Shown here in pieces: positions 10,187 through 56,863 of a stretch of 64,000 nucleotides of DNA. The first letter of the stretch is position 1, and every line of letters starts with the position of its first letter. The stretch covers positions 1-64,000 of the forward strand of contig JACAEQ010000097.1 in NCBI GenBank assembly GCA_013388755.1, read 5' to 3'. The notes under the pieces are model-generated. The model saw only the letters and a program-made list of their open reading frames with translations. It was not told the DNA's origin and ran no database searches. A program made the position numbers and the translations under genes. This stretch comes from Chloroflexota bacterium. Lineage in GTDB: Bacteria; Chloroflexota; Chloroflexia; Chloroflexales; Roseiflexaceae.

Positions 10187-10915
10187 ATGGATCTTCGAAC
10201 CGCCGCTACAACCATCCACAGCGATCCGCTCTGGTGGCGTAAGACGCTGATCGGCGGCGCGTTGCTAATGTCTATTGTCGGCGCCCCTTTTGCCGGCGGC
10301 TGGATCGTCGAGAGTATCGACAATTCGCGTAAAGGATTTCCAACCCCGCTACCACCCTGGTTCGACTGGTGGTCGCGCTGGTTGATCGGCATGTTCGCTG
10401 GCCTCATCGATTTCCTGTTCTATGGTATGCCATTTCTTGTGGCGGTCGTCGTTTTCTTTTGTGTGGCGTTTTCCTCGGTCATCGGTGGTTCGCCTGAACT
10501 GGCGAACCGGGTGCTCGGGGTGCTGGCAGTCGTGATGAGCGCCTACATCGTTCTGGTATTTATCAGTGGGGTTTCGATCGTGGGGCGCTTGATCTATGTG
10601 CAGGATGCTTCGCCGGAGCACGCGATGAGTGTGCGCGCGATGCGTGAGGCGCTGCGCCCGGGCGCGCGGGGTGTCTATTTCCGTGCACGCCTGGCCTCGC
10701 TGCCGGCGTATCTGCCTGCCGTGCTGCTGGGTGCGCTGGCCTATCTGGCCGCCAGCCGCCTGACGGTGCCCGGTACATGGTTGATTATCTTGCTCCTGGT
10801 CTGGTTAACCTTGAGCGCGGTGCTCTATGCACACTTGATTGTGGCTCAGATATATGTCGCGGCGGAACGTGAACTGGATCGGCGCGGCCTTACCCGGGTC
10901 AGCGAGTTGATCTGA
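10187..10915 (+). CDS. DUF4013-type multi-pass membrane protein
   Basis: 242 aa with about five membrane segments: 22-38, 68-88, 92-128 (probably two) and two near 170-220. It starts with WWRKTLIGGALLMSIVGAPFAGG, like the DUF4013 protein encoded 16 bp downstream. ARLASLPAYLPAVLLGAL and a C-terminal charged helix are visible. No catalytic motif is seen. The pair probably arose by duplication and may form a membrane complex, which is inference. Confidence 0.72.
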   Translation: MDLRTAATTIHSDPLWWRKTLIGGALLMSIVGAPFAGGWIVESIDNSRKGFPTPLPPWFDWWSRWLIGMFAGLIDFLFYGMPFLVAVVVFFCVAFSSVIGGSPELANRVLGVLAVVMSAYIVLVFISGVSIVGRLIYVQDASPEHAMSVRAMREALRPGARGVYFRARLASLPAYLPAVLLGALAYLAASRLTVPGTWLIILLLVWLTLSAVLYAHLIVAQIYVAAERELDRRGLTRVSELI

Positions 10916-15601: not shown

Positions 15602-16855
15602 ATGCCGATGTCACGGCGTGTCGTTATTACTGGCATGGGTGCGGTCAGTCCGCTGGGTCTCGACGTTCCTTCCCTCTGGCAAGGTATCCGCGAAGCGCGC
15701 AGCGGCGTCGGACCGATCACTCTGTGTGATGCTGACAACCTCGATTCGCGCATTGCCGGCGAGGTGCGTGGATTTGACCCGCACAATTACATGGACCGTA
15801 AAGAGGTTCGTCGCAATGATCGCTTCATTCACCTGGCAATCGCCGCCGCGACGGAAGCGTTGCGTACGGCCGAGTTGACGGCGACACCAGAGAATGCCGA
15901 TGCGATCGGTGTGATTATCGGTAGCGGCATCGGCGGTATCGCTACCATCGCCGAAGGGGTCCTGACCCTCCGCGAACGCGGCCCGTCGCGCATCAGTCCG
16001 TTCCTGGTGCCGGCCATGATCAATAACATGGCATCGGGCCAGGTCTCAATGATGTTTGGCCTCAAAGGCCCAAACTTTTGCCCGACGTCGGCATGCGCCA
16101 CTGGTGCGCACGCCATAGGTGAGGCTGGCGAGATGATTCGCCGTGGCTGGGCGTCGGCGATTGTGGCGGGTGGCAGTGAAGCGCCGATCACGCCGCTTGG
16201 GATCGCCTCGTTCGCCAGCGCGAAGGCGATATCCACCCGCAACGAGGATCCGGCAGGTGCTTCACGTCCATTCGACGCGCTGCGTGATGGGTTCGTTCTC
16301 TCAGAGGGCGGCGCGGTGCTGCTACTTGAGGATCTGGAGTTTGCCCGGGCGCGCGGGGCGCGCATTCTTGCCGAACTCGTCGGGTATGGACTCTCTGCTG
16401 ATGCATATCATATTACCCAGCCCGCGCCAGGTGGCGAGGGTGCGTTGCGCGCCATGCGGTCGGCGCTGGCGCATGCCGGTCTCTCCCCGGATGATGTTGA
16501 CTATATCAATGCCCACGGCACCAGCACGCCAGCTGGCGATATCGCCGAAACCCAGGCGATCAAGACCTTGCTTGGTGAACGTGCATACCAGGTGCCGGTC
16601 AGTTCCAGCAAGTCTCAGTTTGGCCACCTGCTCGGCGCCGCTGGCTCGATTGAGGCGATCGTCAGTGTGCTCGCCATCCAGAACGATCTGATTCCGCCAA
16701 CGATTAATTACACGACGCCTGATCCACAGTGCGACCTGGATTATGTGCCGAATGTGGCGCGCCCGGGTCGGGTGGATGTTGTGATGAGCAATTCGTTCGG
16801 CTTCGGCGGTCATAATGTATCGCTCGTGTTCCGGCGCTACCATGACAGCGCTTGA
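15602..16855 (+). CDS. fabF: Beta-ketoacyl-ACP synthase II
   Basis: 417 aa, the standard length. Catalytic Cys165 is in [12 protein letters not shown], the two catalytic His are in [11 protein letters not shown] (about 305) and [13 protein letters not shown] (about 341), and the start [15 protein letters not shown] is typical. It extends fatty acyl-ACP with malonyl-ACP. AGGAG (15593-15597) precedes ATG 15602; ATG 15608 is an alternative. It overlaps rnc by 14 bp. In many bacteria acpP precedes fabF-rnc, but no acpP is here. Confidence 0.96.
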
Positions 16856-17558
16856 GACACTGATCGCCCGCCTGGGGGTGACGTTCGCCGATCCCGGCTT
16901 GCTTCAACGCGCGCTTACCCATAGCTCGTATCTGAATGAGCGTATCGAAGAGCGGTTGCATCTCGCCAGCAATGAACGCCTGGAGTTTCTTGGCGATGCG
17001 GTGGTCAATTACCTCGCGGCGACCCTGGTCTATGAACGTTTTCCATCAGCCGGCGAAGGGGAGTTGACCGCATGGCGCATAGCGCTGGTGCGTACCGAAA
17101 CGCTGGCCAGACTCGCGCGCCGGTATGATCTGGGTGGTTATGTTTTGCTGGCGCGCGGTGAGGAGTTGAGTGGCGCGCGGCGCCGTCCGTCGTTACTGGC
17201 CGACACGTTTGAAGCGGTCGTCGCAGCGATCTTCCTCGATGGCGGCCCTGACGCCGCACGCGCGTTTCTTTCTCCGCTCTTCGAAGCGGAACTGGACCAA
17301 CTGCAAACAATTGGCCCGCCAGTGGATTACAAGAGCGCGCTCCAGTCGCGCATCCAGGCGGAACGTGGGGTGACGCCGCGCTACCGTACGCTCGAGGTTA
17401 CCGGCCCTGAACATCAGCGTGAGTTTACTGTCGAGGCGCTGGCAGGCGAGGAGTCGCTGGGGGTCGGTCGTGGGTCGAGCAAGCAGGCAGCGGCTCAGGC
17501 GGCGGCGCGCGCGGCGCTGGAGGCGCTGGACGTGGAAGGTGGGAACGTGGAACGTTGA
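16842..17558 (+). CDS. rnc: Ribonuclease III
   Basis: 238 aa. The RNase III signature [12 protein letters not shown] (44-55) and the second acidic cluster [16 protein letters not shown] are intact; a dsRNA-binding domain covers about 160-230. It cuts double-stranded RNA such as rRNA precursors. The coding end is odd: the last codons (DVEGGNVER, stop) are made by the 7-bp GTGGAAC/GTTGAAC array at 17529-17572, and the TGA stop comes from a GTTGAAC unit. The start overlaps fabF by 14 bp, so the two are translationally coupled. Confidence 0.95.
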
Positions 17559-17572
17559 ACGTGGAACGTTAC
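17529..17572 (+). repeat. Heptamer array (GTGGAAC/GTTGAAC), rnc - reductase junction
   Basis: About six slightly varied 7-bp units. The array covers the last ten codons of rnc and reaches within 6 bp of the next start codon. Confidence 0.85.
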
Positions 17573-22493: not shown

Positions 22494-23528
22494 ATGTCCG
22501 AAGTAGACCAGACCATGAATGCAGCAGGAGCGACTGATGCCTCGGTCACCATCCGCCAGTTGCAACTCGGTGTGCCAGCGAAGCCGCGCACGCTGCTGGG
22601 TGATGCATGGCGGCGCTTCCGGCGACACAAACTGGCAATGGTTGGCGCCAGCACGTTGTTCCTTCTCATCCTGGCTGTGACGATCGGTGCCCTGTTTTAT
22701 GAGCGCTACCTGGTGGATCAACTGGCACAATCCGGTATGCCCGTTCCGGTTGAGAATCCGGATATTCGCGTGTTGATCGACCATCTTGACTTCCTGGCGC
22801 TGCTGTCGCCACCAACCAGTGTGCACCCGTTTGGCACCGATGATCTGGGCCGCGATCTCCTGGCGCGCTGTATCTATGGCGGGCGCGTCTCGCTTTCGGT
22901 CGGCCTGGTCGCCATGCTGATCGCTATTTCGCTGGGAACCATCATTGGCGCCGCTGCCGGTTTCTTCGGCGGTGTCGTGGATCAGGCGCTGATGCGGCTG
23001 ACCGATCTGTTCCTGTCGTTGCCGGCCGTGCCGCTCATCCTGCTTACCGTCTATTTGTTCCGCGATCCGGTGATTCAGGCGATGGGGTCGCCGGAGGCAG
23101 GGATCTTCGTGATTGTCGTGACGGTGATTGGCGCGCTGGCATGGATGCAGACCGCGCGTGTCGTGCGCGCGACGTTTCTGTCGCTCAAGGAGAAGGAGTT
23201 TGTTGAGGCGGCGCGCTGCCTTGGCATCAGCCGGACGGCAATTATGTTTCGTCACATTCTGCCCAATGCCATGAGCCCGATTATTGTCGCGGCGACGCTC
23301 GAAATCGGCAGCGCAATCATCGCTGAATCGACCCTCTCCTTCCTGGGGGTCGGTTTCCCGCCGGATACGCCAACCTGGGGCCGGCTGGTGACCGACGGTA
23401 GCCAGTATCTTCAGGCGGCGCCATGGCTGGCGCTCATCCCCGGCCTGCTGATCTTCCTCACGGTGCTCAGTATCAACTTTATGGGTGATGGCCTGCGCGA
23501 TGCGCTCGATCCACGGTCGCGACTGTAG
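22494..23528 (+). CDS. ABC transporter permease, DppC/OppC type
   Basis: 344 aa. RTLLGDAWRRFRRHKLAMVG, the family signature GTDDLGRDLLARCIYGGRVS and the EAA motif EAARCLGISRTAIMFRHILP identify the second permease. A longer first outside loop (about 65-105) is seen, as is usual. The TAG stop (23526-23528) overlaps the first unit of the AGGGGTT array, so the repeat array abuts the gene exactly. The expected dppD/dppF-like genes are absent; a four-helix-bundle gene in repeats occupies the downstream spot. Confidence 0.93.
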   Translation: MSEVDQTMNAAGATDASVTIRQLQLGVPAKPRTLLGDAWRRFRRHKLAMVGASTLFLLILAVTIGALFYERYLVDQLAQSGMPVPVENPDIRVLIDHLDFLALLSPPTSVHPFGTDDLGRDLLARCIYGGRVSLSVGLVAMLIAISLGTIIGAAAGFFGGVVDQALMRLTDLFLSLPAVPLILLTVYLFRDPVIQAMGSPEAGIFVIVVTVIGALAWMQTARVVRATFLSLKEKEFVEAARCLGISRTAIMFRHILPNAMSPIIVAATLEIGSAIIAESTLSFLGVGFPPDTPTWGRLVTDGSQYLQAAPWLALIPGLLIFLTVLSINFMGDGLRDALDPRSRL

Positions 23529-23561
23529 GGGTTAAGGGTTAAGAGTTACGGGTTAGGGGTT
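23527..23561 (+). repeat. Left heptamer array, (AGGGGTT)5
   Basis: Five units in exact 7-bp phase: AGGGGTT, AAGGGTT, AAGAGTT, ACGGGTT, AGGGGTT, ending 9 bp before the four-helix-bundle gene. It is the mirror image of the array at 24007-24030. Confidence 0.9.
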
Positions 23562-23570
23562 AAGCTGAAC

Positions 23571-24002: not shown

Positions 24003-24006
24003 TTCG

Positions 24007-24030
24007 TAACCCCTAACCCCTAACCCCTAA
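24007..24030 (-). repeat. Right heptamer array, (TAACCCC)3, inverted to the left array
   Basis: TAACCCC three times in exact phase plus TAA. Read on the minus strand it is GGGGTTA, the left unit. CTA at 24027-24029 is the TAG stop codon of the hydrolase on the minus strand, so this array too provides a neighbour's stop. Confidence 0.9.
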
Positions 24031-24866
24031 ATATACTCCAGCTGGCTCACCCGTCGCCGCCATTCTGTCTTGATCTCCACCTGCGTCCCGCTGCTGGCCT
24101 GGAAGTCCATCAGCAGGCGATTGAAGACATTGGGCTGGTCGAGGAAGGGGAAGTGGTTTGAGCGGGGCAATTTGATAACCTGTTGTAACGATCGGTGATC
24201 ATCGTGCAGGAATCGCGCCTGGTCCGCGGTGACAATCGCATCCTTCTCGCCATACACGGCCAGTAATGGCACGTCCAGCGACTCAAGATCGCCGCGCAGA
24301 TCGGCTTCTACCACCGAGGCGATCACGCGCTGCACCACAAGCTCCGACAGGCTATCGGTATCCTCAATAATTTCGTTCAAGATCTGGGGGTAGTCAACGT
24401 TTAACTGGCGCACCAGACGCGTCCAGACATTGCCTGGCGTCGCGCGCCCGAAAATGCGCGAAAGCGCCCCTGGTTTGATATGGCTCTGGATCTGTGATCC
24501 CTGGATTGGCGTGCTGACCATCATCAGGCGGGTAACGCGATCCGGATTCTGACATGCGGCCCGGAGCGCGACCATACCACCCAGCCCGTGGCCGACCAGG
24601 CTGACCTTTGTGATACCCAGCTGGTCCATGAACCGCATGAGCAGATCGACATACTCGGCGATCGAAAACGCCCCTTCGCGCCGATCCGACTCGCCAAAAC
24701 CCCAGAAGTCGATTGCGAAGGTCCGATAGCGTTCCGCGGCATGTTCCATCGTTGGCAACCAGTAGCGCCACGATCCCAGCCAGCTATGCAGAAAGATCAC
24801 AGGTGCGCCGCGGCGACCGATCACCTCGTAGTGCACCAGCCGGTTGTCGAGATGGACGGCGCTCAT
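24027..24866 (-). CDS. Alpha/beta hydrolase-fold protein with nucleophile Ser replaced
   Basis: 279 aa with the full alpha/beta-hydrolase plan: oxyanion region FLHSWLGSW, IDFWGFGESDR, a cap region, acidic residue region YGEKDAIV and catalytic His in SNHFPFLDQP. The nucleophile elbow, usually G-x-S-x-G, reads VGHGLGG, so Gly94 stands where Ser should be. DNA at this place (GGG codon) leaves no doubt in this sequence. It is therefore probably not a classic esterase; it may bind a ligand or act differently. It overlaps the giant kinase gene by 4 bp, so it may work in that signalling unit, as RsbQ-like hydrolases do with sensor proteins. Confidence 0.85.
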   Translation of the reverse strand: MSAVHLDNRLVHYEVIGRRGAPVIFLHSWLGSWRYWLPTMEHAAERYRTFAIDFWGFGESDRREGAFSIAEYVDLLMRFMDQLGITKVSLVGHGLGGMVALRAACQNPDRVTRLMMVSTPIQGSQIQSHIKPGALSRIFGRATPGNVWTRLVRQLNVDYPQILNEIIEDTDSLSELVVQRVIASVVEADLRGDLESLDVPLLAVYGEKDAIVTADQARFLHDDHRSLQQVIKLPRSNHFPFLDQPNVFNRLLMDFQASSGTQVEIKTEWRRRVSQLEYI

Positions 24867-35081: not shown

Positions 35082-36242
35082 ATGACGATGCGTATTAGCA
35101 TGCTGGCCCCGTTCGGTATCCGCCCGAAAGGAACGCTGGCGGCGCGGATGTTGCCGCTGGCGCAGGCACTGGCGCGGCGCGGCCATTCCGCCGAGATTGT
35201 TGCGCCGCCGGTGCACAACCCGGAAGATGCCGGCACGTGTGTTGACCACGGTGGTGTGCCGGTAATCCATGTTGCCGCGCCGCGATTGCCGGGACCGGCA
35301 GGCGCCGTACAGCAGACCCTGGCGCTGCTGCGGGCGGCGCTGGTGTTCCAGCCAGATGTGGTGCACCTGTTCAAGCCGAAAGGGTACAGCGGCCTGGCGG
35401 CATTGCTGGCGCAAATGGTTCTTCCGGCGCTCCCGCTTGTGGTTGACATGGACGACTGGGAAGGGCCGGGCGGTTGGAATGACCTGCTTCCGTACCCTGC
35501 CGTGGCGAAACACATGTTTGCCTGGCAGGAGCGTGACCTGCCGCGCCGTGCCGCTGCCGTGACGGTCGCCAGCCGGACCCTTGAGACGTTGGCGTTGAGC
35601 TTCGGGGTCGCGTCTGACCGCATCTTCTATCTGCCGAACGGCGTCACGTATGCTCAACGTTCAACGTTCAACATTCAACGTTCAACGTTCAACCTCCTTC
35701 TCTACACCCGCTTCTGGGAACTCGACATTCACGAAGTTGTCGCGGCGCTGGCAGGAATCGCGTCGCGTCGCCCGGAAGCGAGGCTGATCGTCGTCGGCAA
35801 GGGGGAGCGCGGCGAAGAACGCGAACTCCTGCGCCTGGCCGGTCGCGCCGGTCTGGCGGAGATGATCGATTACCGTGGATGGCTGGCGCCTGAAGCGATT
35901 CCGGCGGTGCTGGCGCTGGCCGATGTGGCGCTGGCGCCGATGCAAGATACCCTGATCAACCGGGCGCGCGGCCTGGCCAAGTTGCTGGAATTGATGGGAG
36001 CGGGTCTTCCGATCGTCGCGAGCCGGGTGGGCCAGGCCGCCGAGTACCTTGAGGATGGCGCCAGTGGTTTCCTTGTTCCGCCGGGCGATCCCGGCGCGCT
36101 GGCCGTTGCGGTGCTCCGGCTGCTGAACGACGAGGTGTTACGGTCACGGCTTGGCGCCGGGGCGCGTGTCGCTGCGACACGCTATGCCTGGGATACCCTT
36201 GCGCTGACCGCCGAGCGAGCGTACCGGCGCGCACGGGTGTGA
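35082..36242 (+). CDS. GT4-family glycosyltransferase with in-frame heptamer insertion
   Basis: 386 aa. GT-B fold: N-terminal domain LAPFGIRPKGTLAARMLPLA, LPLVVDMDDWEG; C-terminal donor-binding domain with LIVVGKGERGEERELL, PEAIPAVLALADVALAPM and the E-x7-E-like KLLELMGAGLPIVASRVG. Between the two domains, right after FYLPNGVT, a 42-bp array of CAACGTT units encodes AQRSTFNIQRSTFN. 42 bp is two turns of 21 bp, so the frame is kept. ATG 35082 or 35088 can start it; neither has a strong ribosome-binding site. First gene of the large polysaccharide cluster. Confidence 0.88.
   Translation: MTMRISMLAPFGIRPKGTLAARMLPLAQALARRGHSAEIVAPPVHNPEDAGTCVDHGGVPVIHVAAPRLPGPAGAVQQTLALLRAALVFQPDVVHLFKPKGYSGLAALLAQMVLPALPLVVDMDDWEGPGGWNDLLPYPAVAKHMFAWQERDLPRRAAAVTVASRTLETLALSFGVASDRIFYLPNGVTYAQRSTFNIQRSTFNLLLYTRFWELDIHEVVAALAGIASRRPEARLIVVGKGERGEERELLRLAGRAGLAEMIDYRGWLAPEAIPAVLALADVALAPMQDTLINRARGLAKLLELMGAGLPIVASRVGQAAEYLEDGASGFLVPPGDPGALAVAVLRLLNDEVLRSRLGAGARVAATRYAWDTLALTAERAYRRARV
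35653..35694 (-). repeat. Heptamer array inside a glycosyltransferase gene
   Basis: Six units of CAACGTT (one CAACATT), the reverse complement of the GTTGAAC unit found elsewhere. Only in this orientation does the GTTGAAC type read through without stop codons. Confidence 0.9.
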
Positions 36243-42408: not shown

Positions 42409-43212
42409 ATGAGCCCACAATTTGCCGATTATCCCCGCTATGCCTGGCAGTTACTCCAGGGTGATCGTTCATCCAGCGAAGCCACCGGCGCCGCCTGGCG
42501 TACCGCTGACATCGCGCCATACCTCGATCTCAGCCGGCCACGCGACATCCTCGATCTTGGTAATGGCAGGTTGCGACCGCAATACTCTATCCTGCGGGCG
42601 CAGGGTCACCGCGTGATTGGTATTGACCTGGTAAACCGGCCTGCATCGGGATGGAAGGATGTTGCCTATGTCGTGGCACGCCGAATCTACCTGCACCGCC
42701 TCGGCCTGCCTGTGATGACTGCTGCGCCTGCCGGTCTGGTCTGCGGTCATGCCGGGTTGTTGCCGTTTGCCGATCACACATTTGATCTGGTGACGTCAAT
42801 CGCCGCATTCGAGCATTTTCTTGACGTACCGGCAGTTCTGAGCGAAGTCGCTCGAGTACTCCGGCCAGGTGGGGTCATCTGGGCGCTGGTTCATTTGTTT
42901 ACCAGCCCTTCCGGTGGGCACAATCTGAGTTTCACCGAGGTGCCGTTGCAGCACATACCTCCGGGCGTCGAACCATGGGATCATCTGCGCAGCAGACGTT
43001 TGCCGTTCAATGTACCGCTGAATGAATGGCGCGCCCATCAGTATCTTGCTGAATTCGGCCGGCATCTTGAGGTGCTGAAGCAGTATTGCGCCACGCGTGA
43101 AGGCGAGACCTGGCTCAATACGCCTGAAGCGGCCGAATTGCTGCAGGCTGGCTACACAGCGGACGAGTTAACGTGTTGCGCGTATGTCATTGTCGCGCGT
43201 AAGGCGGGATGA
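42409..43212 (+). CDS. SAM-dependent methyltransferase-like protein
   Basis: 267 aa. A class I methyltransferase-like fold: RDILDLGNGRLRPQYSILRA takes the place of motif I, then VIGIDLVNRP (acidic end of strand 2), LPFADHTFDLVTSIAAFEHF (motif II region) and LSEVARVLRPGGVIWALVHL. Motif I is unusual: LDLGNGRLRP instead of LDLGCGxG, although the Gly pair is kept. Substrate unknown, presumably a sugar of the polymer. ATG 42409 is preferred; the in-frame ATG at 42373 overlaps the previous gene. Confidence 0.82.
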   Translation: MSPQFADYPRYAWQLLQGDRSSSEATGAAWRTADIAPYLDLSRPRDILDLGNGRLRPQYSILRAQGHRVIGIDLVNRPASGWKDVAYVVARRIYLHRLGLPVMTAAPAGLVCGHAGLLPFADHTFDLVTSIAAFEHFLDVPAVLSEVARVLRPGGVIWALVHLFTSPSGGHNLSFTEVPLQHIPPGVEPWDHLRSRRLPFNVPLNEWRAHQYLAEFGRHLEVLKQYCATREGETWLNTPEAAELLQAGYTADELTCCAYVIVARKAG

Positions 43213-43334
43213 GGAGAGTGGGAGAGCGGGAGAGCGGGAGAGCGGGAGAGCGGGAGACCATGTATGAGTGATGGCTATGCTCAAGACTGCAACATCATCA
43301 AATATCTCAAGCTCTCCCCTTCTCCCCTTCTCCT
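43213..43334. repeat. Inverted 8-bp arrays around a 50-bp gene-free core
   Basis: Left: five GGGAGAGC-type units at about 43218-43258, starting 6 bp after the methyltransferase stop. Right: three units of CTCTCCCC/TTCTCCCC/TTCTCCTG at 43311-43334, the same sequence inverted. The core between them holds only a three-codon ORF (ATG 43260). The layout copies the array - gene - inverted array structure at 23527-24030, without a gene. The spacer up to 43370 holds nothing else. Confidence 0.85.
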
Positions 43335-44943: not shown

Positions 44944-45945
44944 ATGACGACTGGAACTGGAGCGCGACGCGGCGTGCCGCCGGTCGCGGTTATCGGGTGC
45001 GGCTACTGGGGCAAGAACCTGGTACGCAACTTCTACCAGCTCGGCGCGCTGGCGATGGTGTGTGATGCAACCGAAGCCGGGCGCGCCCTGGCGGCGCAGA
45101 TTGCGCCGGGCGTACCGGTCGTTGCCGACATCGAAGACGTTACCACCGGCGCCGTGGTGATTGCTACACCGGCGGTGACGCACTATGAGATCGTGCGCCA
45201 CGCCCTTGAGACCGGCCGCGACGTGTTCGTTGAGAAACCGCTGGCGTTGACCTATGCCCAGGGCGCACGGCTGGTCCAGATCGCGCATGAGCAGCGCCGC
45301 ATCCTGATGGTTGGCCATGTGCTCGAATATCACCCCGCCATTGTGCGACTGGTCGAGATGGTCCGGAACGGCGAGCTGGGTGATGTTCACTACATCTACT
45401 CCAACCGCCTCAGCCTGGGGAAGGTGCGGCGCGAGGAGAACATTCTGTGGAGCTTTGCGCCGCATGACGTCGCGGTGATCATCCGCTTGCTGGGCGCGTT
45501 GCCATTGCAGGTCGCCTCATCCGGCGGTAGTTATCTCCAGCCGAACGTTGCTGATGTGACGGTGACCAGTTTGCTGTTTGATGGCGGTGTGCGGGCGCAT
45601 ATTCACGTGTCGTGGCTGCACCCGTTCAAGGAGCAACGCCTGGTGGTTATTGGATCGCGTAAGATGGCCAGTTTCGACGATGTTGCGAAAGAACTGGTGC
45701 TGTACGACCAGCGGGTAGAAGTGCGCGAGGGAGAACCGGTGCCGATCCGTGGTGCCGGTGAACCGGTCGAGTTCGACCGCACCGAACCGCTGCGCCTGGA
45801 GTGCGAAGCGTTCCTGCGCGCCGTTGCGATGCGTGAGCCGCCGTTGACCGATGGTGAGAGCGGGTTGCGGGTGCTGCGCGTGCTCCAGGCGGCGCAACGT
45901 TCGCTGGTGACCGGTGGTGAGCCCGTGCCGCTGGTTGAACGTTGA
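44944..45945 (+). CDS. Gfo/Idh/MocA oxidoreductase, WbpB-like
   Basis: 333 aa. Rossmann start VAVIGCGYWGKNLVRNFYQL, then VFVEKPLALTYAQGARLV (the EKP motif) and RREENILWSFAPHDVAVI, which is typical of WbpB-type UDP-N-acetylglucosaminuronate 3-dehydrogenases. It would oxidise C3 before the aminotransferase and acetyltransferase encoded next. AGAGGAAA precedes ATG 44944. The last codons VER and the TGA stop come from GTTGAAC units of a heptamer array. Confidence 0.9.
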   Translation: MTTGTGARRGVPPVAVIGCGYWGKNLVRNFYQLGALAMVCDATEAGRALAAQIAPGVPVVADIEDVTTGAVVIATPAVTHYEIVRHALETGRDVFVEKPLALTYAQGARLVQIAHEQRRILMVGHVLEYHPAIVRLVEMVRNGELGDVHYIYSNRLSLGKVRREENILWSFAPHDVAVIIRLLGALPLQVASSGGSYLQPNVADVTVTSLLFDGGVRAHIHVSWLHPFKEQRLVVIGSRKMASFDDVAKELVLYDQRVEVREGEPVPIRGAGEPVEFDRTEPLRLECEAFLRAVAMREPPLTDGESGLRVLRVLQAAQRSLVTGGEPVPLVER

Positions 45946-45950
45946 ACGTG
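45933..45950 (+). repeat. Short heptamer array (GTTGAAC) at the end of the WbpB-like gene
   Basis: GTTGAACGTTGAACGTGG: two full units and part of a third. They provide the final codons and stop. A GTTCCACG string in the opposite orientation follows at 45965-45972. Confidence 0.75.
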
Positions 45951-45991: not shown

Positions 45992-46612
45992 ATGCCGGAG
46001 CGTCCTTACTTTGTCCATCCAACCGCTATTGTCGATGAGCCATGCGAGATTGGCGCTGGCACAAAGATCTGGCACTTCTGCCATATTCTGGCGGGTGCGC
46101 GTGTCGGGGCGAACTGCGTCCTGGGGCAGAATGTGCTGGTCGCCAGCCAGGTGGTTGTCGGCGACGGCTGCAAGATACAGAACAATGTATCGCTCTATAC
46201 CGGCGTCACACTGGAGGATTTCGTGTTCTGCGGGCCGTCGTGCGTCTTCACGAACGTTATCAACCCGCGCGCCGAGATCAACCGCCGTGCCGAGTATATG
46301 CCGACGCTGGTGCGCCGTGGCGCGACCATCGGCGCGAATGCGACTATCATCTGTGGCGCGACGATCGGTCGCTACGCTTTCATCGGCGCGGGGGCTGTGG
46401 TGCACGGCGATGTTCCTGACTATGCGTTGATACTTGGCGTTCCTGGCCAGCGCCGTGGCTGGATGAGCCGCCACGGGTATCGCTTGCCGGAACCTGATTC
46501 CAATGCGGTCATGCGCTGCCCGGGGAGTGGATGGCGCTATCGCCTGGCTGGCCCGGATACTGTGCGATGCATGGATTGGGATGAGGATGCGGCGTTGGAC
46601 GTGGAACGTTAG
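45992..46612 (+). CDS. Left-handed beta-helix N-acetyltransferase, WbpD-like
   Basis: 206 aa. Hexapeptide repeats from residue 6 to about 150: YFVHPTAIVDEPCEIGAG, VGANCVLGQNVLVAS, CKIQNNVSLYTGVTLEDFV, then GATIGANATIICGATIGR and GVPGQRRGWMSRHGYRL. This is the WbpD type, which acetylates the 3-amino group of a UDP-sugar acid with acetyl-CoA. AAGGAG sits 7 nt before ATG 45992. The C-terminus ends DVER from the heptamer array; the TAG stop lies in it too. Confidence 0.92.
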   Translation: MPERPYFVHPTAIVDEPCEIGAGTKIWHFCHILAGARVGANCVLGQNVLVASQVVVGDGCKIQNNVSLYTGVTLEDFVFCGPSCVFTNVINPRAEINRRAEYMPTLVRRGATIGANATIICGATIGRYAFIGAGAVVHGDVPDYALILGVPGQRRGWMSRHGYRLPEPDSNAVMRCPGSGWRYRLAGPDTVRCMDWDEDAALDVER

Positions 46613-46674
46613 GCGTGGGAACGTGGAACGTGGAACGTTAGGCGTGGGAACGTGGAACGTGGAACGTGGGAACA
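46598..46674 (+). repeat. Heptamer array left of the second four-helix-bundle gene
   Basis: About ten GTGGAAC-type units with GTTAGGC and GTGGGAAC variants. It spans the last four codons and stop of the acetyltransferase and ends about 15 bp before the four-helix-bundle gene. Confidence 0.9.
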
Positions 46675-52253: not shown

Positions 52254-53437
52254 CGCACAACCAGAAGCTACGCTCAACCATCTGCATCATCTCGTTCTCA
52301 CCCATCGCCCGTGACGCGCGCGTGTTGCGCCAGGTTTCGTACCTGGCACGGCAGTATGACCTGGTTGTGATCGGATATGGCGATCCGCCGCCTGCCTGGC
52401 GCAATCACGCGGGCATCCGGTGGGTTGCCATTGATCCGCCGGCCCGGAACGAACTGCGGGCGGCGCAGTTCCTGTTGCTGGCAGCCCGCGCAGGATTCAT
52501 ACCTGCTCTCTATGAACTCTGGTACTGGCTGCAGATGCCCTATCGCCGCGCGCAGGAACGGGTACAGGCCCTTAAAGCGGATCTGGTGTACGCCAACCAC
52601 TGGACGGCGCTGCCGCTGGGATGGCGATTGGCAGCGCGCTGGAACGCTCCACTGGTGCTCGACCTGCATGAGTATGCGCCCCTGGAATGGGAGGAGCAAT
52701 GGCGCTGGCGCATGCTCCACGCGCCGATGATCCGTTACTTCTTGCAACGCTACGCCACCCGTGCCGGCGCGACGTTGACTGTGTCGCCGGAGATTGCCCG
52801 GCGCTATGAAGAGGAGTTCGGGTTCGCGCCGGTTGTTGTGCTGAATGCGCCGGAGTATGAACCGACGCCGGATCACGATGTCGATCCGCAATCCATCCGC
52901 TTGATCCACCACGGCAGCGCGATTGCAGCGCGCGCGCTGGAACTGATGATCGAGACGATTGCGTGCTGCGATGCGCGTTACCGTCTGCATTTCATGCTGG
53001 TCGGCGATGAGGCGTATATCCAGCGGTTACGCTCCATAGCCGGGCGGGTCGCGCCGGGACGCGTCTCGTTTCTCGATCCGGTTGCGCCGCACCAGGTCGT
53101 GGCCCGGATTGCGCCGTTCGATATTGGCTTCTTTTTACTCAAGCCGTCGAACTATAACTACAGTGTCGCCTTGCCGAACAAGTTGTTCGATTTCGTCGGC
53201 GCCGGCCTGGCGGTCTGTATCGGTCCGTCGCCCGGCATGGCGGCATTCGTGCACGAGCGACAGTGTGGCGTGGTTGCGCCGTCGTTCGATCCGGCCGTCG
53301 TCGCGGCGACGCTCAATCAGTTGAACACTGAACAGATCCGGGCGATGCGGCGCTCCGCGCGCGTTGCCGCTGCCGAGATTAACGCAGCAACGGAGATGGC
53401 GAAGGTCGTACGTTTGTGTGAGCAACTACTGGGTTGA
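52250..53437 (+). CDS. GT4-like glycosyltransferase
   Basis: 395 aa. ISFSPIARDARVLRQVSYLA at the start, LVLDLHEYAPLEWEEQW in the acceptor domain and IRLIHHGSAIAARALELM, FDIGFFLLKPSNYNYSVALP and NKLFDFVGAGLAVCIGP in the donor domain. This belongs to the GT4-like group without the classic E-x7-E spacing, as often seen in capsule clusters. Its stop lies at the edge of a heptamer array (53433-53482). Confidence 0.88.
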   Translation: MTHNQKLRSTICIISFSPIARDARVLRQVSYLARQYDLVVIGYGDPPPAWRNHAGIRWVAIDPPARNELRAAQFLLLAARAGFIPALYELWYWLQMPYRRAQERVQALKADLVYANHWTALPLGWRLAARWNAPLVLDLHEYAPLEWEEQWRWRMLHAPMIRYFLQRYATRAGATLTVSPEIARRYEEEFGFAPVVVLNAPEYEPTPDHDVDPQSIRLIHHGSAIAARALELMIETIACCDARYRLHFMLVGDEAYIQRLRSIAGRVAPGRVSFLDPVAPHQVVARIAPFDIGFFLLKPSNYNYSVALPNKLFDFVGAGLAVCIGPSPGMAAFVHERQCGVVAPSFDPAVVAATLNQLNTEQIRAMRRSARVAAAEINAATEMAKVVRLCEQLLG

Positions 53438-53482
53438 CGTTGAACGTTCAACCTTCAACGTTCAATGCCTGACCTTCAACGG
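53433..53482. repeat. Heptamer array with inverted halves before the asparagine-synthase-like gene
   Basis: GTTGAC and GTTGAAC units turn into CTTCAAC/GTTCAAT units, meeting in the palindrome GTTGAACGTTCAAC. It fills the entire gap between two genes; the ribosome-binding site GGTGAG of the next gene follows directly. Confidence 0.88.
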
Positions 53483-53488
53483 TGAGAT

Positions 53489-55489
53489 ATGTGCGGCATC
53501 TACGGCATCTGGCATCTCGACGGTCGCCCGGTGGATCTGGCGGCGCTGCGTACCTCGACCGATCGGCTGCGCCATCGTGGGCCGGACGATGAGGGGTACC
53601 TGCTGGCCGGTCCACAGGGTGGCCTGGTTGCCTCGTTCGGCGGGGCAGATACCGATGAGCGCCTGGGTCTGCCATCACTCGATGAGGCGCATGGTGAGCG
53701 GTTCAGCCTGGCCTTCGGGTTTCGCCGCCTTGCCATCCTGGACCTCTCGCCCGCCGGTCACCAGCCAATGGCTGACGCCAGCGGGCGTTACTGGATCGTA
53801 TTCAATGGTGAGATCTACAACTATCTCGAGTTGCGCACCGAACTGCAGCAACTCGGGCACACATTTCGCAGCGGCGGCGACACCGAGGTTATTCTGGCGG
53901 CGTATGCGCAGTGGGGCGCGGCATGCCTGGAGCGCTTCAACGGGATGTGGGCCTTCGCGATCTGGGATAGCGAGTGCCGCGAACTTTTCCTCGCGCGCGA
54001 TCGGTTCGGCATTAAACCACTCTACTATGTTGCCGCGCGCCGCACGTTCGCCTTCGCCTCTGAGATCAAGGCGCTGGTCGGGCGCCACGCGCACCCCTTC
54101 GCACCTGAGCCGTATGCGGTCTATCGCTTCCTTGACGACGGCCGGCTCCCCGGGCCGCAGAGTGGAGCAACATTCTTCAAGGGTGTCCGGTCGTTGCCGC
54201 CTGGCCACTTTATGCACGTCAGTGGAGCAGGATCATCGGCACCGCAACGCTATTATGATGTTGTGCTTGCCGATCATGCCGGCAATAGCGGCGATGCGCC
54301 CGATGCGCTGCTTGCGGCATACCGCGATCTCTTCATTGATGCCGTGCGCCTCGAACTGCGCTCCGATGTAGCGGTTGGCACATGCCTGAGCGGCGGCATC
54401 GACTCGTCGTCAATCGTGTGCGCCGTGAACTGGTTGATGGCGGAGAGCGGCATGTCCACCGCTCAGATTGGCGCGCGGCAAAAGACCTTCAGCGCGGTGT
54501 ATGAGGATGATGGGCGTCACAATGAGCGGCGGCACATCGAACGGGTGCTGCGTGCCACTGCGGCGGATGGTCATTTTGTCGTTCCAACCGTCGAACGCCT
54601 GAATGCTGACATGGAGCGCCTGGCATGGCATCAGGACGAGCCGTTCCAGTCAACCAGCATTTTTGCGCAATGGTGCGTGATGAGCCTGGCGCGTGAGCAT
54701 GGCGTCACAGTATTGCTCGATGGGCAGGGCGCGGATGAATTGCTGGCGGGGTATCGCCCGTATGTGTATCACCTGCGCGATCTGGCACGCCGGGCGCGTG
54801 GTGTGGAGCTCGTTGCGGAAGCGGCAGCGATTCACGCGCGGAGCGGGTTGCCGCTGCCGGCCTTGCTGCGTGGCGCCATCATCCATGCTCTGCCGGCGCC
54901 GGCGATCGATCTGGTGCGCCACGGGCGCCGGCGACTCCATGCGCCTCCGGCCGGCCTGCGGCGCGAGTTTGCCGCCGAGCAACAGCGTGCCGCGCGGGCC
55001 GACATTGCGCCATGGCGCGAACAGGACTCGCTCGATCGCCACCTGCGCGATTCGGTGAGGGAAAGCAGCCTGCCGCACCTGTTGCGCTATGAGGACCGCA
55101 ACTCGATGGCGTTTGGTATCGAGGCGCGTGTGCCGTTCCTCGATCATCGGCTGGTCGAGTTCGCCTTTCAACGCGTGCCGCATCTACGCATTCACCAGGG
55201 CTGGACCAAGTGGGTCCACCGGCAGGCGCTGGCCGGGTTGCTGCCTGACGCCATCGCCTGGCGCAGCGACAAAGTCGGCTTTGAGACGCCTGAGGTGGCG
55301 TGGCAACGCGAGTTGATCGCGGGGCGCCCCGACCTGTTTGCCGACGGAGTGGCCAGCGGCGCCTATCTTGATCTGCCGACGGTGCGCCGGGCGGTTGCCG
55401 TGTGGCGTGACCATGGCGGCGATACGCGGCGGGTGTGGCGCTGGGTCAGCCTGGAACTCTGGTTGCGGGCGTGGAACGTGGAACATTGA
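53489..55489 (+). CDS. Asparagine synthase-like glutamine amidotransferase
   Basis: 666 aa. Cys2 of MCGIYGIWHLDG is the glutaminase nucleophile; LRHRGPDDEG, FNGEIYNYLELR and the synthase motif CLSGGIDSSSIVCAV are intact. In polysaccharide clusters such proteins (WbpS/WbpG type) turn uronic acids into amides. That fits the WbpB/D/E-like genes 5 kb upstream, which would make a diacetamido-uronic acid; this is inference. True asparagine synthesis is the alternative. The C-terminus AWNVEH and the stop come from the heptamer array. Confidence 0.92.
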   Translation: MCGIYGIWHLDGRPVDLAALRTSTDRLRHRGPDDEGYLLAGPQGGLVASFGGADTDERLGLPSLDEAHGERFSLAFGFRRLAILDLSPAGHQPMADASGRYWIVFNGEIYNYLELRTELQQLGHTFRSGGDTEVILAAYAQWGAACLERFNGMWAFAIWDSECRELFLARDRFGIKPLYYVAARRTFAFASEIKALVGRHAHPFAPEPYAVYRFLDDGRLPGPQSGATFFKGVRSLPPGHFMHVSGAGSSAPQRYYDVVLADHAGNSGDAPDALLAAYRDLFIDAVRLELRSDVAVGTCLSGGIDSSSIVCAVNWLMAESGMSTAQIGARQKTFSAVYEDDGRHNERRHIERVLRATAADGHFVVPTVERLNADMERLAWHQDEPFQSTSIFAQWCVMSLAREHGVTVLLDGQGADELLAGYRPYVYHLRDLARRARGVELVAEAAAIHARSGLPLPALLRGAIIHALPAPAIDLVRHGRRRLHAPPAGLRREFAAEQQRAARADIAPWREQDSLDRHLRDSVRESSLPHLLRYEDRNSMAFGIEARVPFLDHRLVEFAFQRVPHLRIHQGWTKWVHRQALAGLLPDAIAWRSDKVGFETPEVAWQRELIAGRPDLFADGVASGAYLDLPTVRRAVAVWRDHGGDTRRVWRWVSLELWLRAWNVEH

Positions 55490-55580
55490 ACGTGGGAACG
55501 TGGGACGTGGGACGTGGGACGTGGAACGTGGAACGTGGAACGTGGGAACGTAGGACGTGGAACGTGGAACGTGGGAACGG
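55468..55580 (+). repeat. Longest heptamer array (about 16 units)
   Basis: About 113 bp of GTGGAAC, GTGGGAC and GTGGGAAC units with one GTAGGAC and one ATTGAAC. It spans the last eight codons of the asparagine-synthase-like gene and reaches 9 bp before the next start. Both 7-bp and 8-bp steps occur, so its phase drifts. Confidence 0.92.
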
Positions 55581-55588
55581 GTGAGCTG

Positions 55589-56821
55589 GTGACGGTTCTT
55601 CACAGCAACATCGAGCAGGCTCGTCCAGCCGCGCGCGTCACTGCCTGGCGCTGGGCGTTGCGACTGTATGCCGGGTACAGCCTTCTCTTCATCATCTGGA
55701 ATGCCTGGGTTTCGTCCGTCTATCCTAAATGGGTCGAAGAGGCGTCCATCGCGATCTGGCCGCCGGCGTCACCTGGCGCATGGCTCGAACGCGTGTTGCT
55801 GTTGCCGGTTCTGCGCTACGATGTGCTCTGGTACATTGGCATTGCTCAATACGGCTATGGCCATCGCCCGGGTGATACGGCGTTCCACCCGCTCTATCCA
55901 TTATTGACCGGCATCCTTGGGCATCTGTTCGGTGGCGAGTATTTGCTGGCGGCCTGGTTAATCGCCCAGGTGTGTTGTGTCGCCATGCTGGCGCTGTTCT
56001 ACCGGCTGGTCATACTTGATGATGACGACGCCACGGCGCGGCGCGCCACACTGTTTCTGCTGGGTAGCCCGCTTGGTTTCGCGTTTCTGTTGCCGTACAC
56101 TGAGTCACTCCTCTTGCTGAGTATCGTCGCGGCATTGTATGCAGGGCGGCAGGGGCGCTGGTGGCTCGCGGGCCTGGCAGGGGGCGCTGCGGCGCTCACG
56201 AAGCAGCCTGGCGTTGTGGTGGTGGTGCCGTTGCTCTGGGAGGTGTGGCTGCAACGGGGCAGTGCCGTGCAGCGACAGGGAGTGCGGGCGCTGGTTGCGC
56301 CGCTGGCGGGCCTGGCGCTGACGCCGCTGGCATTGCTGGGGTGGATCGTGTACCGTGCGACGCTGGGTGATGTTGCCTTCTCGTGGCGCGAACCACAGAC
56401 GCTGGTGAGCGCGCTCCTGGTGACGCCGACGTATGCTGATGTGTGGGGCGAGACGTTTAGCTGGCCGTGGGTCAACCTCGGCTACGCGCTCGAGCAGTTA
56501 CGCGCCCGGCCCTATTTCTACCTGCTGCTGAACCTCATGGTCATGCTGATCATGCTGGCGCTGACCCTGGCGGCGGTGGCGCGCGCGCGGCACAGTTATG
56601 CTCTCTACAGCCTGGTGATCACGGCCATGAACCTGTCGATCGTCTACCCGCTCTGGCCGTACATGGGTATCATCCGGCGCTTTACGATTATCTTCCCACT
56701 CTTTGTCCAACTGGCGCGCTGGGGGCGCCGCCGCAGCATCACACTGATCGTGCTCGTCTGCAATGCGCTGCTCTGGGCGTTGATCGCGTCGATGTATGTG
56801 CGCAATGCGTTCGTTCCGTGA
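55589..56821 (+). CDS. Mannosyltransferase-like membrane protein (PIG-V type)
   Basis: 410 aa with about ten membrane segments. VLRYDVLWYIGIAQYGYGHR in the first outside loop and HPLYPLLTGILGHLFGGEYL match the PIG-V/GT76 group of GT-C mannosyltransferases; Asp in RYDVLWY is the likely catalytic residue. It would use polyprenyl-phosphate mannose outside the membrane. GTG 55589 is the best start because upstream in-frame codons lie within the heptamer array. Confidence 0.85.
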   Translation: MTVLHSNIEQARPAARVTAWRWALRLYAGYSLLFIIWNAWVSSVYPKWVEEASIAIWPPASPGAWLERVLLLPVLRYDVLWYIGIAQYGYGHRPGDTAFHPLYPLLTGILGHLFGGEYLLAAWLIAQVCCVAMLALFYRLVILDDDDATARRATLFLLGSPLGFAFLLPYTESLLLLSIVAALYAGRQGRWWLAGLAGGAAALTKQPGVVVVVPLLWEVWLQRGSAVQRQGVRALVAPLAGLALTPLALLGWIVYRATLGDVAFSWREPQTLVSALLVTPTYADVWGETFSWPWVNLGYALEQLRARPYFYLLLNLMVMLIMLALTLAAVARARHSYALYSLVITAMNLSIVYPLWPYMGIIRRFTIIFPLFVQLARWGRRRSITLIVLVCNALLWALIASMYVRNAFVP

Positions 56822-56822
56822 C

Positions 56823-56863
56823 GACGTGGAACGTTGAACGTTGAACGCGGTTTCAAGTACAAT
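56823..56863 (+). repeat. Heptamer array that may donate a -35 box
   Basis: GTGGAAC then two GTTGAAC units (56826-56846) directly after the mannosyltransferase stop. TTGAAC (56834-56839), an 18-nt spacer and TACAAT (56858-56863) form a fair promoter for the next gene, with the -35 box inside the array. The spacer 56864-57051 contains a GC-rich hairpin near 56922-56940 and no gene. Confidence 0.6.

Follow-up and report, generated by a model that had tools for sequence, protein, structure and literature searches.

A heptamer repeat array translated in the interdomain linker of a Roseiflexaceae glycosyltransferase

The stretch of DNA considered here, 64,000 nucleotides long and called the window below, carries a predicted glycosyltransferase gene with an array of seven-nucleotide repeats inside its reading frame. 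The features that concern us first are listed here together with the evidence that places them.

35088..36242, + strand: gene for a GT4-type (GT-B fold) glycosyltransferase of 384 aa (Pfam, AF2 model, Foldseek)
35643..35696, + strand: interdomain linker of 18 aa, VTYAQRSTFNIQRSTFNL, between LPNG and LLYTRFWE (ortholog alignment, linker comparison, pLDDT)
35653..35694, + strand: heptamer array of six TTCAACG units (antisense GTTGAAC), coding for residues 190-202 (TRF, period-7 self-match)

Judged from its Pfam N- and C-domains (Glyco_trans_4_4, 3.6e-24; Glyco_trans_1_4, 4.1e-24), which flank the array on both sides, and from its modelled fold, the product is a GT4/GT-B glycosyltransferase, for which sugar transfer is the predicted activity. 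The AlphaFold2 model, made with 31 sequences, has a mean pLDDT of 93.2, and its Foldseek matches are GT-B enzymes (MshA, PimA, BshA, GlgM). Between two modelled strands (residues 179-181 and 201-206) runs a coil with a mean pLDDT of about 60 over residues 191-200. This low-confidence coil between two strands, taken with the GT-B matches, places the array in the interdomain linker. In the ortholog alignment LPNG and LLLYTRFWE are conserved and the linker that they enclose is not, meaning that it tolerates variable sequence.

The six heptamers are CTCAACG, TTCAACG, TTCAACA, TTCAACG, TTCAACG and TTCAACC, and their product is QRSTFNIQRSTFN. TRF calls the same array at 35654-35693, with a period of 7 and 5.7 copies. 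The 7-bp unit is not divisible by three; six copies of it lie in frame inside the ORF, and the glycosyltransferase frame is open throughout the array. As can be read from the sequence, GTTGAAC arrays run into a stop within 21 nt whatever the frame (GTT GAA CGT TGA), the opposite strand, GTTCAAC, gives stop-free VQRSTFN, and GTGGAAC units have no stops on either strand. The initial annotation had this arithmetic right, and the array, its open frame, its stop-free orientation and its position between the domains, all described there, are borne out by sequence, TRF and the structure model.

Since the window was taken from a 145-contig assembly, one might suspect an assembly artefact, or else a chance stretch of low-complexity sequence. 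However, 42 bp is less than the usual read length, and the period-7 self-match of the array (31/35, compared to a maximum of 23 in 50 simulated first-order Markov sequences of 64 kb) is far above chance. Moreover, six further genomes, among them one that is a single contig, have heptamers at the same site. Such a suspicion is scarcely credible, and the independent orthologs already refute it.

Orthologs were drawn from the family and the order. In seven of them, namely those of the window genus and of six Roseiflexus genomes, lag 7 (or 14) is the strongest periodicity of the linker DNA (7/7, p <= 0.0006 each by shuffling), and these seven array-bearing orthologs form one clade with support 97/91. 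Among the other orthologs p < 0.01 is not reached in 22 of 24, the exceptions being L034 and, weakly, L033 (p = 0.008). The unit is CAACGTT in the window and in L068, CAACCTT in L079 and CAACCTT/CAACCCT in L046, while the arrays of L032, L069 and L070 are decayed. Common ancestry of the linker arrays within this clade is likely. The array of L034, a distant relative from another family, is independent of them: it consists of CCCCCAT heptamers in the same linker (L034 2044-2130; G017:C134 near 10744-10764), and in L033, a congener, any heptamer signal there is weak. This suggests that repeats can also arise de novo in this linker. We also considered whether a linker array is a copy of the genome's own house heptamer; this fails for L034, where CCCCCAT occurs nowhere else in the genome.

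Within the clade the linkers are 18 (window), 20 (L068), 22, 22, 22, 29 and 50 aa long. Array-free linkers range from 15 to 38 aa and are mostly of 17-20 aa; 18 aa is also found in array-free L033, L035, L057 and L060. The array had been described as an insertion, and this does not hold: the 18-aa linker is no longer than those of several array-free orthologs, there is no net gain of 42 bp, and hence the repeat took the place of other linker sequence and did not make the linker longer overall. From 22 to 29 and from 29 to 50 aa the steps are 7 and 21 residues, which correspond to 3 and 9 heptamer units. Those of the window and L068 are not whole 7-residue steps from the others, so turnover did not proceed purely in three-unit steps.

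Could the array be a selected spacer, kept since in-frame changes of three units tune linker length and domain motion? The differences of 3 and 9 units would fit such a role, and so would the persistence of the repeat across seven species. Nevertheless, most linkers, that of the window included, have the usual length, the identity of the unit is not conserved across orthologs, and array-free relatives have the same gene. We consider selection of this kind unlikely; it is likely that the repeat's role is passive, that of a tolerated spacer.

The initial annotation also proposed that changes in array length switch the gene on and off. The locus would then be a contingency locus, where 7-bp slippage turns the glycosyltransferase off and on and varies a surface glycan. 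The arithmetic would allow it: gain or loss of one or two units would put a stop within residues 230 to 270, with most of the C-terminal domain lost, while three units keep the frame. Glycosyltransferases are a class often phase-variable in pathogens, and the gene adjoins other glycosyltransferase genes (four further ones lie downstream on the same strand). Yet the ORF is open in all seven array-bearing orthologs, with no stops within any, and a search for out-of-frame alleles among these seven, at one genome per species, gave 0/7. Three of the seven have decayed arrays, and several arrays are too decayed to slip; the longest pure run in the window array is only about 20 nt (2.9 units); and the longest linker arrays differ by multiples of three units. 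The initial annotation had named one identical length fixed in all relatives as evidence against it, and lengths in fact vary. With seven orthologs of differing lengths all in frame, switching is unsupported rather than disproved, and we regard it as quite improbable. In Haemophilus influenzae the hmw heptamers act in the promoter. The heptanucleotide SSRs of that species, which vary phase, share the 7-bp tandem unit with the window array (PMC2651432, PMC8262952), among whose orthologs no out-of-frame allele was seen.

The reading that we prefer, at a probability of roughly 0.75, is that the window array belongs to a dispersed GTTGAAS/GTGGAAC repeat family of the Roseiflexaceae and is a clade-wide repeat, filtered by frame and tolerated in a disordered GT-B linker. 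Its translation product would be a polar QRSTFN-type peptide, part of the disordered segment that joins the two GT-B domains. The repeat would have reached this linker no later than the common ancestor of the window genus and Roseiflexus, and its copy number and unit sequence would have turned over after entry. Purifying selection may have purged alleles that shift the frame or bring stops, and may have kept linker length close to normal, apart from two expansions.

The family is abundant in G000, the genome of the window gene, and in the Roseiflexus genomes. There are 69 two-unit matches in G000 and 184 four-unit matches in G003, compared to 0 in the reversed-pattern control. Stretches of about 6 kb round arrays were analysed: in G000, every site with two exact GTNGAAC units and, in addition, sites with three GTTGAAN units; in G003, the arrays listed in the first 2.8 Mb of its single contig; in G021, 20 places. 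Genes were called by a purpose-made codon model, for which stop positions are exact and starts and weak calls inexact. Intragenic arrays of at least 20 bp are all in the stop-free orientation in G000 (the window gene, L114, L115, L144) and in the G003 sample (the ortholog, L155, L167). The earlier expectation that intragenic arrays take this orientation thus stands for these samples and this length, although it is partly circular, in that a long sense array ends the ORF. A sense array of 19 bp inside the NudC-like gene of L121 is too short to bring TGA into frame. The other long intragenic arrays, in a DUF2079 membrane protein, an ABC transporter, a PMT-like protein and uncharacterised membrane-like proteins, are always stop-free and lie outside or between conserved domains as far as seen.

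Two large membrane-like proteins of G003 (L167 2362-6591 and L155 1810-4431) have long stop-free arrays that are translated, in what look like loops; L167 has three such arrays, apart from one another.

Most arrays of the family are intergenic, close to an upstream stop codon, and face the opposite way to the linker array, which is an intragenic antisense exception to this pattern. The following sense arrays in the window, called by TRF, are given as context.

17530..17569, + strand: sense array that includes the stop codon of RNase III gene 16842-17558
45934..45949, + strand: short sense GTTGAAC array at the 3' end of gene 44974-45945
46599..46669, + strand: sense GTGGAAC-type array at the 3' end of gene 45992-46612
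55470..55579, + strand: sense GTGGAAC-type array between tandem genes
56824..56847, + strand: sense mixed array 2 nt past the stop of gene 55571-56821

Some other repeats of the window may be mentioned. Antisense ACGTTCA units at 53437-53465, closely following the stop codon of a gene on the + strand, are an apparent counter-example and fall below the seed length used. An octamer array (GGAGAGCG, 5.6 copies, 43213-43259) begins directly after the stop of gene 42613-43212. Heptamers of the GGGGTTA type lie at the 3' ends of two convergent genes (23526-23564 and 24005-24031), with the G-rich strand in the sense of its own gene at each of the two sites.

Between tandem genes the ratio of sense to antisense arrays is 18:2 in G000 and 31:2 in the G003 sample (p = 7e-11 together); with 11:2 among the places in G021 (p = 0.02), the three genomes give 60:6. 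For the 49 sense arrays of G000 and G003, the upstream stop is at most 50 nt from the array start in 44, and inside or at the array in 27 if array ends are taken leniently. Proteins whose stop is inside the array commonly end in NVER or VEG (e.g. 16842-17558, L132, L134, L140, L146, L147), since all three frames of the array lead to ...TTG AAC GTT GAA CGT TGA. When ten upstream genes were checked with Pfam for truncation by sense arrays, no domain was clearly cut; RNase III, GerE, GcvP and phosphorylase domains end complete just before the array. The supply of stop codons has to be rejected as a complete explanation of the sense bias. The sense orientation is found in 12 of 12 arrays that are made up of GTGGAAC units or include them, and as GTGGAAC is stop-free on both strands and is nonetheless sense-biased, there must be some further cause beyond stops.

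A doubtful suggestion can be made here, which is that the family is a transcription-oriented 3'-end element of the Roseiflexaceae. The purine-richer strand would be kept in RNA between operon genes, stops or not, perhaps since the C-rich reverse strand would load Rho in untranslated RNA, while ribosome cover would let the glycosyltransferase linker keep the reverse strand. If this is true, the linker is an informative exception.

Comparable heptamer families, including reverse-oriented copies in ORFs, are already published from Xanthomonas, Nostoc and Beggiatoaceae. The TAACTGA direct repeats of Beggiatoaceae, Cyanobacteria and Bacteroidetes are dispersed and mostly intergenic; the forward orientation has stops in all frames, copies interior to ORFs are reverse-oriented (one is in a surface loop of an RNA polymerase beta-prime-like protein), and some repeats overlap the upstream stop codon (PMC4679880). 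The Roseiflexaceae repeats are like them in dispersal, in mostly intergenic position, in forward-strand stops, in reverse copies within ORFs and in overlap of some with the upstream stop; unlike them, they have a different unit and hug the upstream stop, whereas TAACTGA in the BOGUAY genome is mostly just upstream of start codons (PMC4679880). The GGGAATC and GGGGA(T/C)T heptamers of Xanthomonas and Nostoc, which form G-quadruplexes, are likewise dispersed between aligned ORFs, but the GTTGAAC family is without G-tracts, and its strand bias is strong, in contrast to their little overall bias there (30% v 35% in Xcc) (PMC4692102). In-ORF tandem repeats of Borgs are also translated into disordered regions of unbroken ORFs; their units, however, are divisible by three, while with the 7-bp unit of the window array the frame is kept only by whole-array length and orientation (PMC9879509). 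A survey found oligopurine runs moderately over-represented in Chloroflexus and Roseiflexus (PMC4060949), and we found no paper on a GTTGAAC-type heptamer family in Roseiflexus in the library that was searched.

The case shows a non-triplet repeat family settling inside a protein, in a disordered linker and in the stop-free orientation, with the frame kept across several species while the units turn over. The contrasting class is that of the sense arrays at stop codons, whose strong strand bias is not explained by stop avoidance alone.
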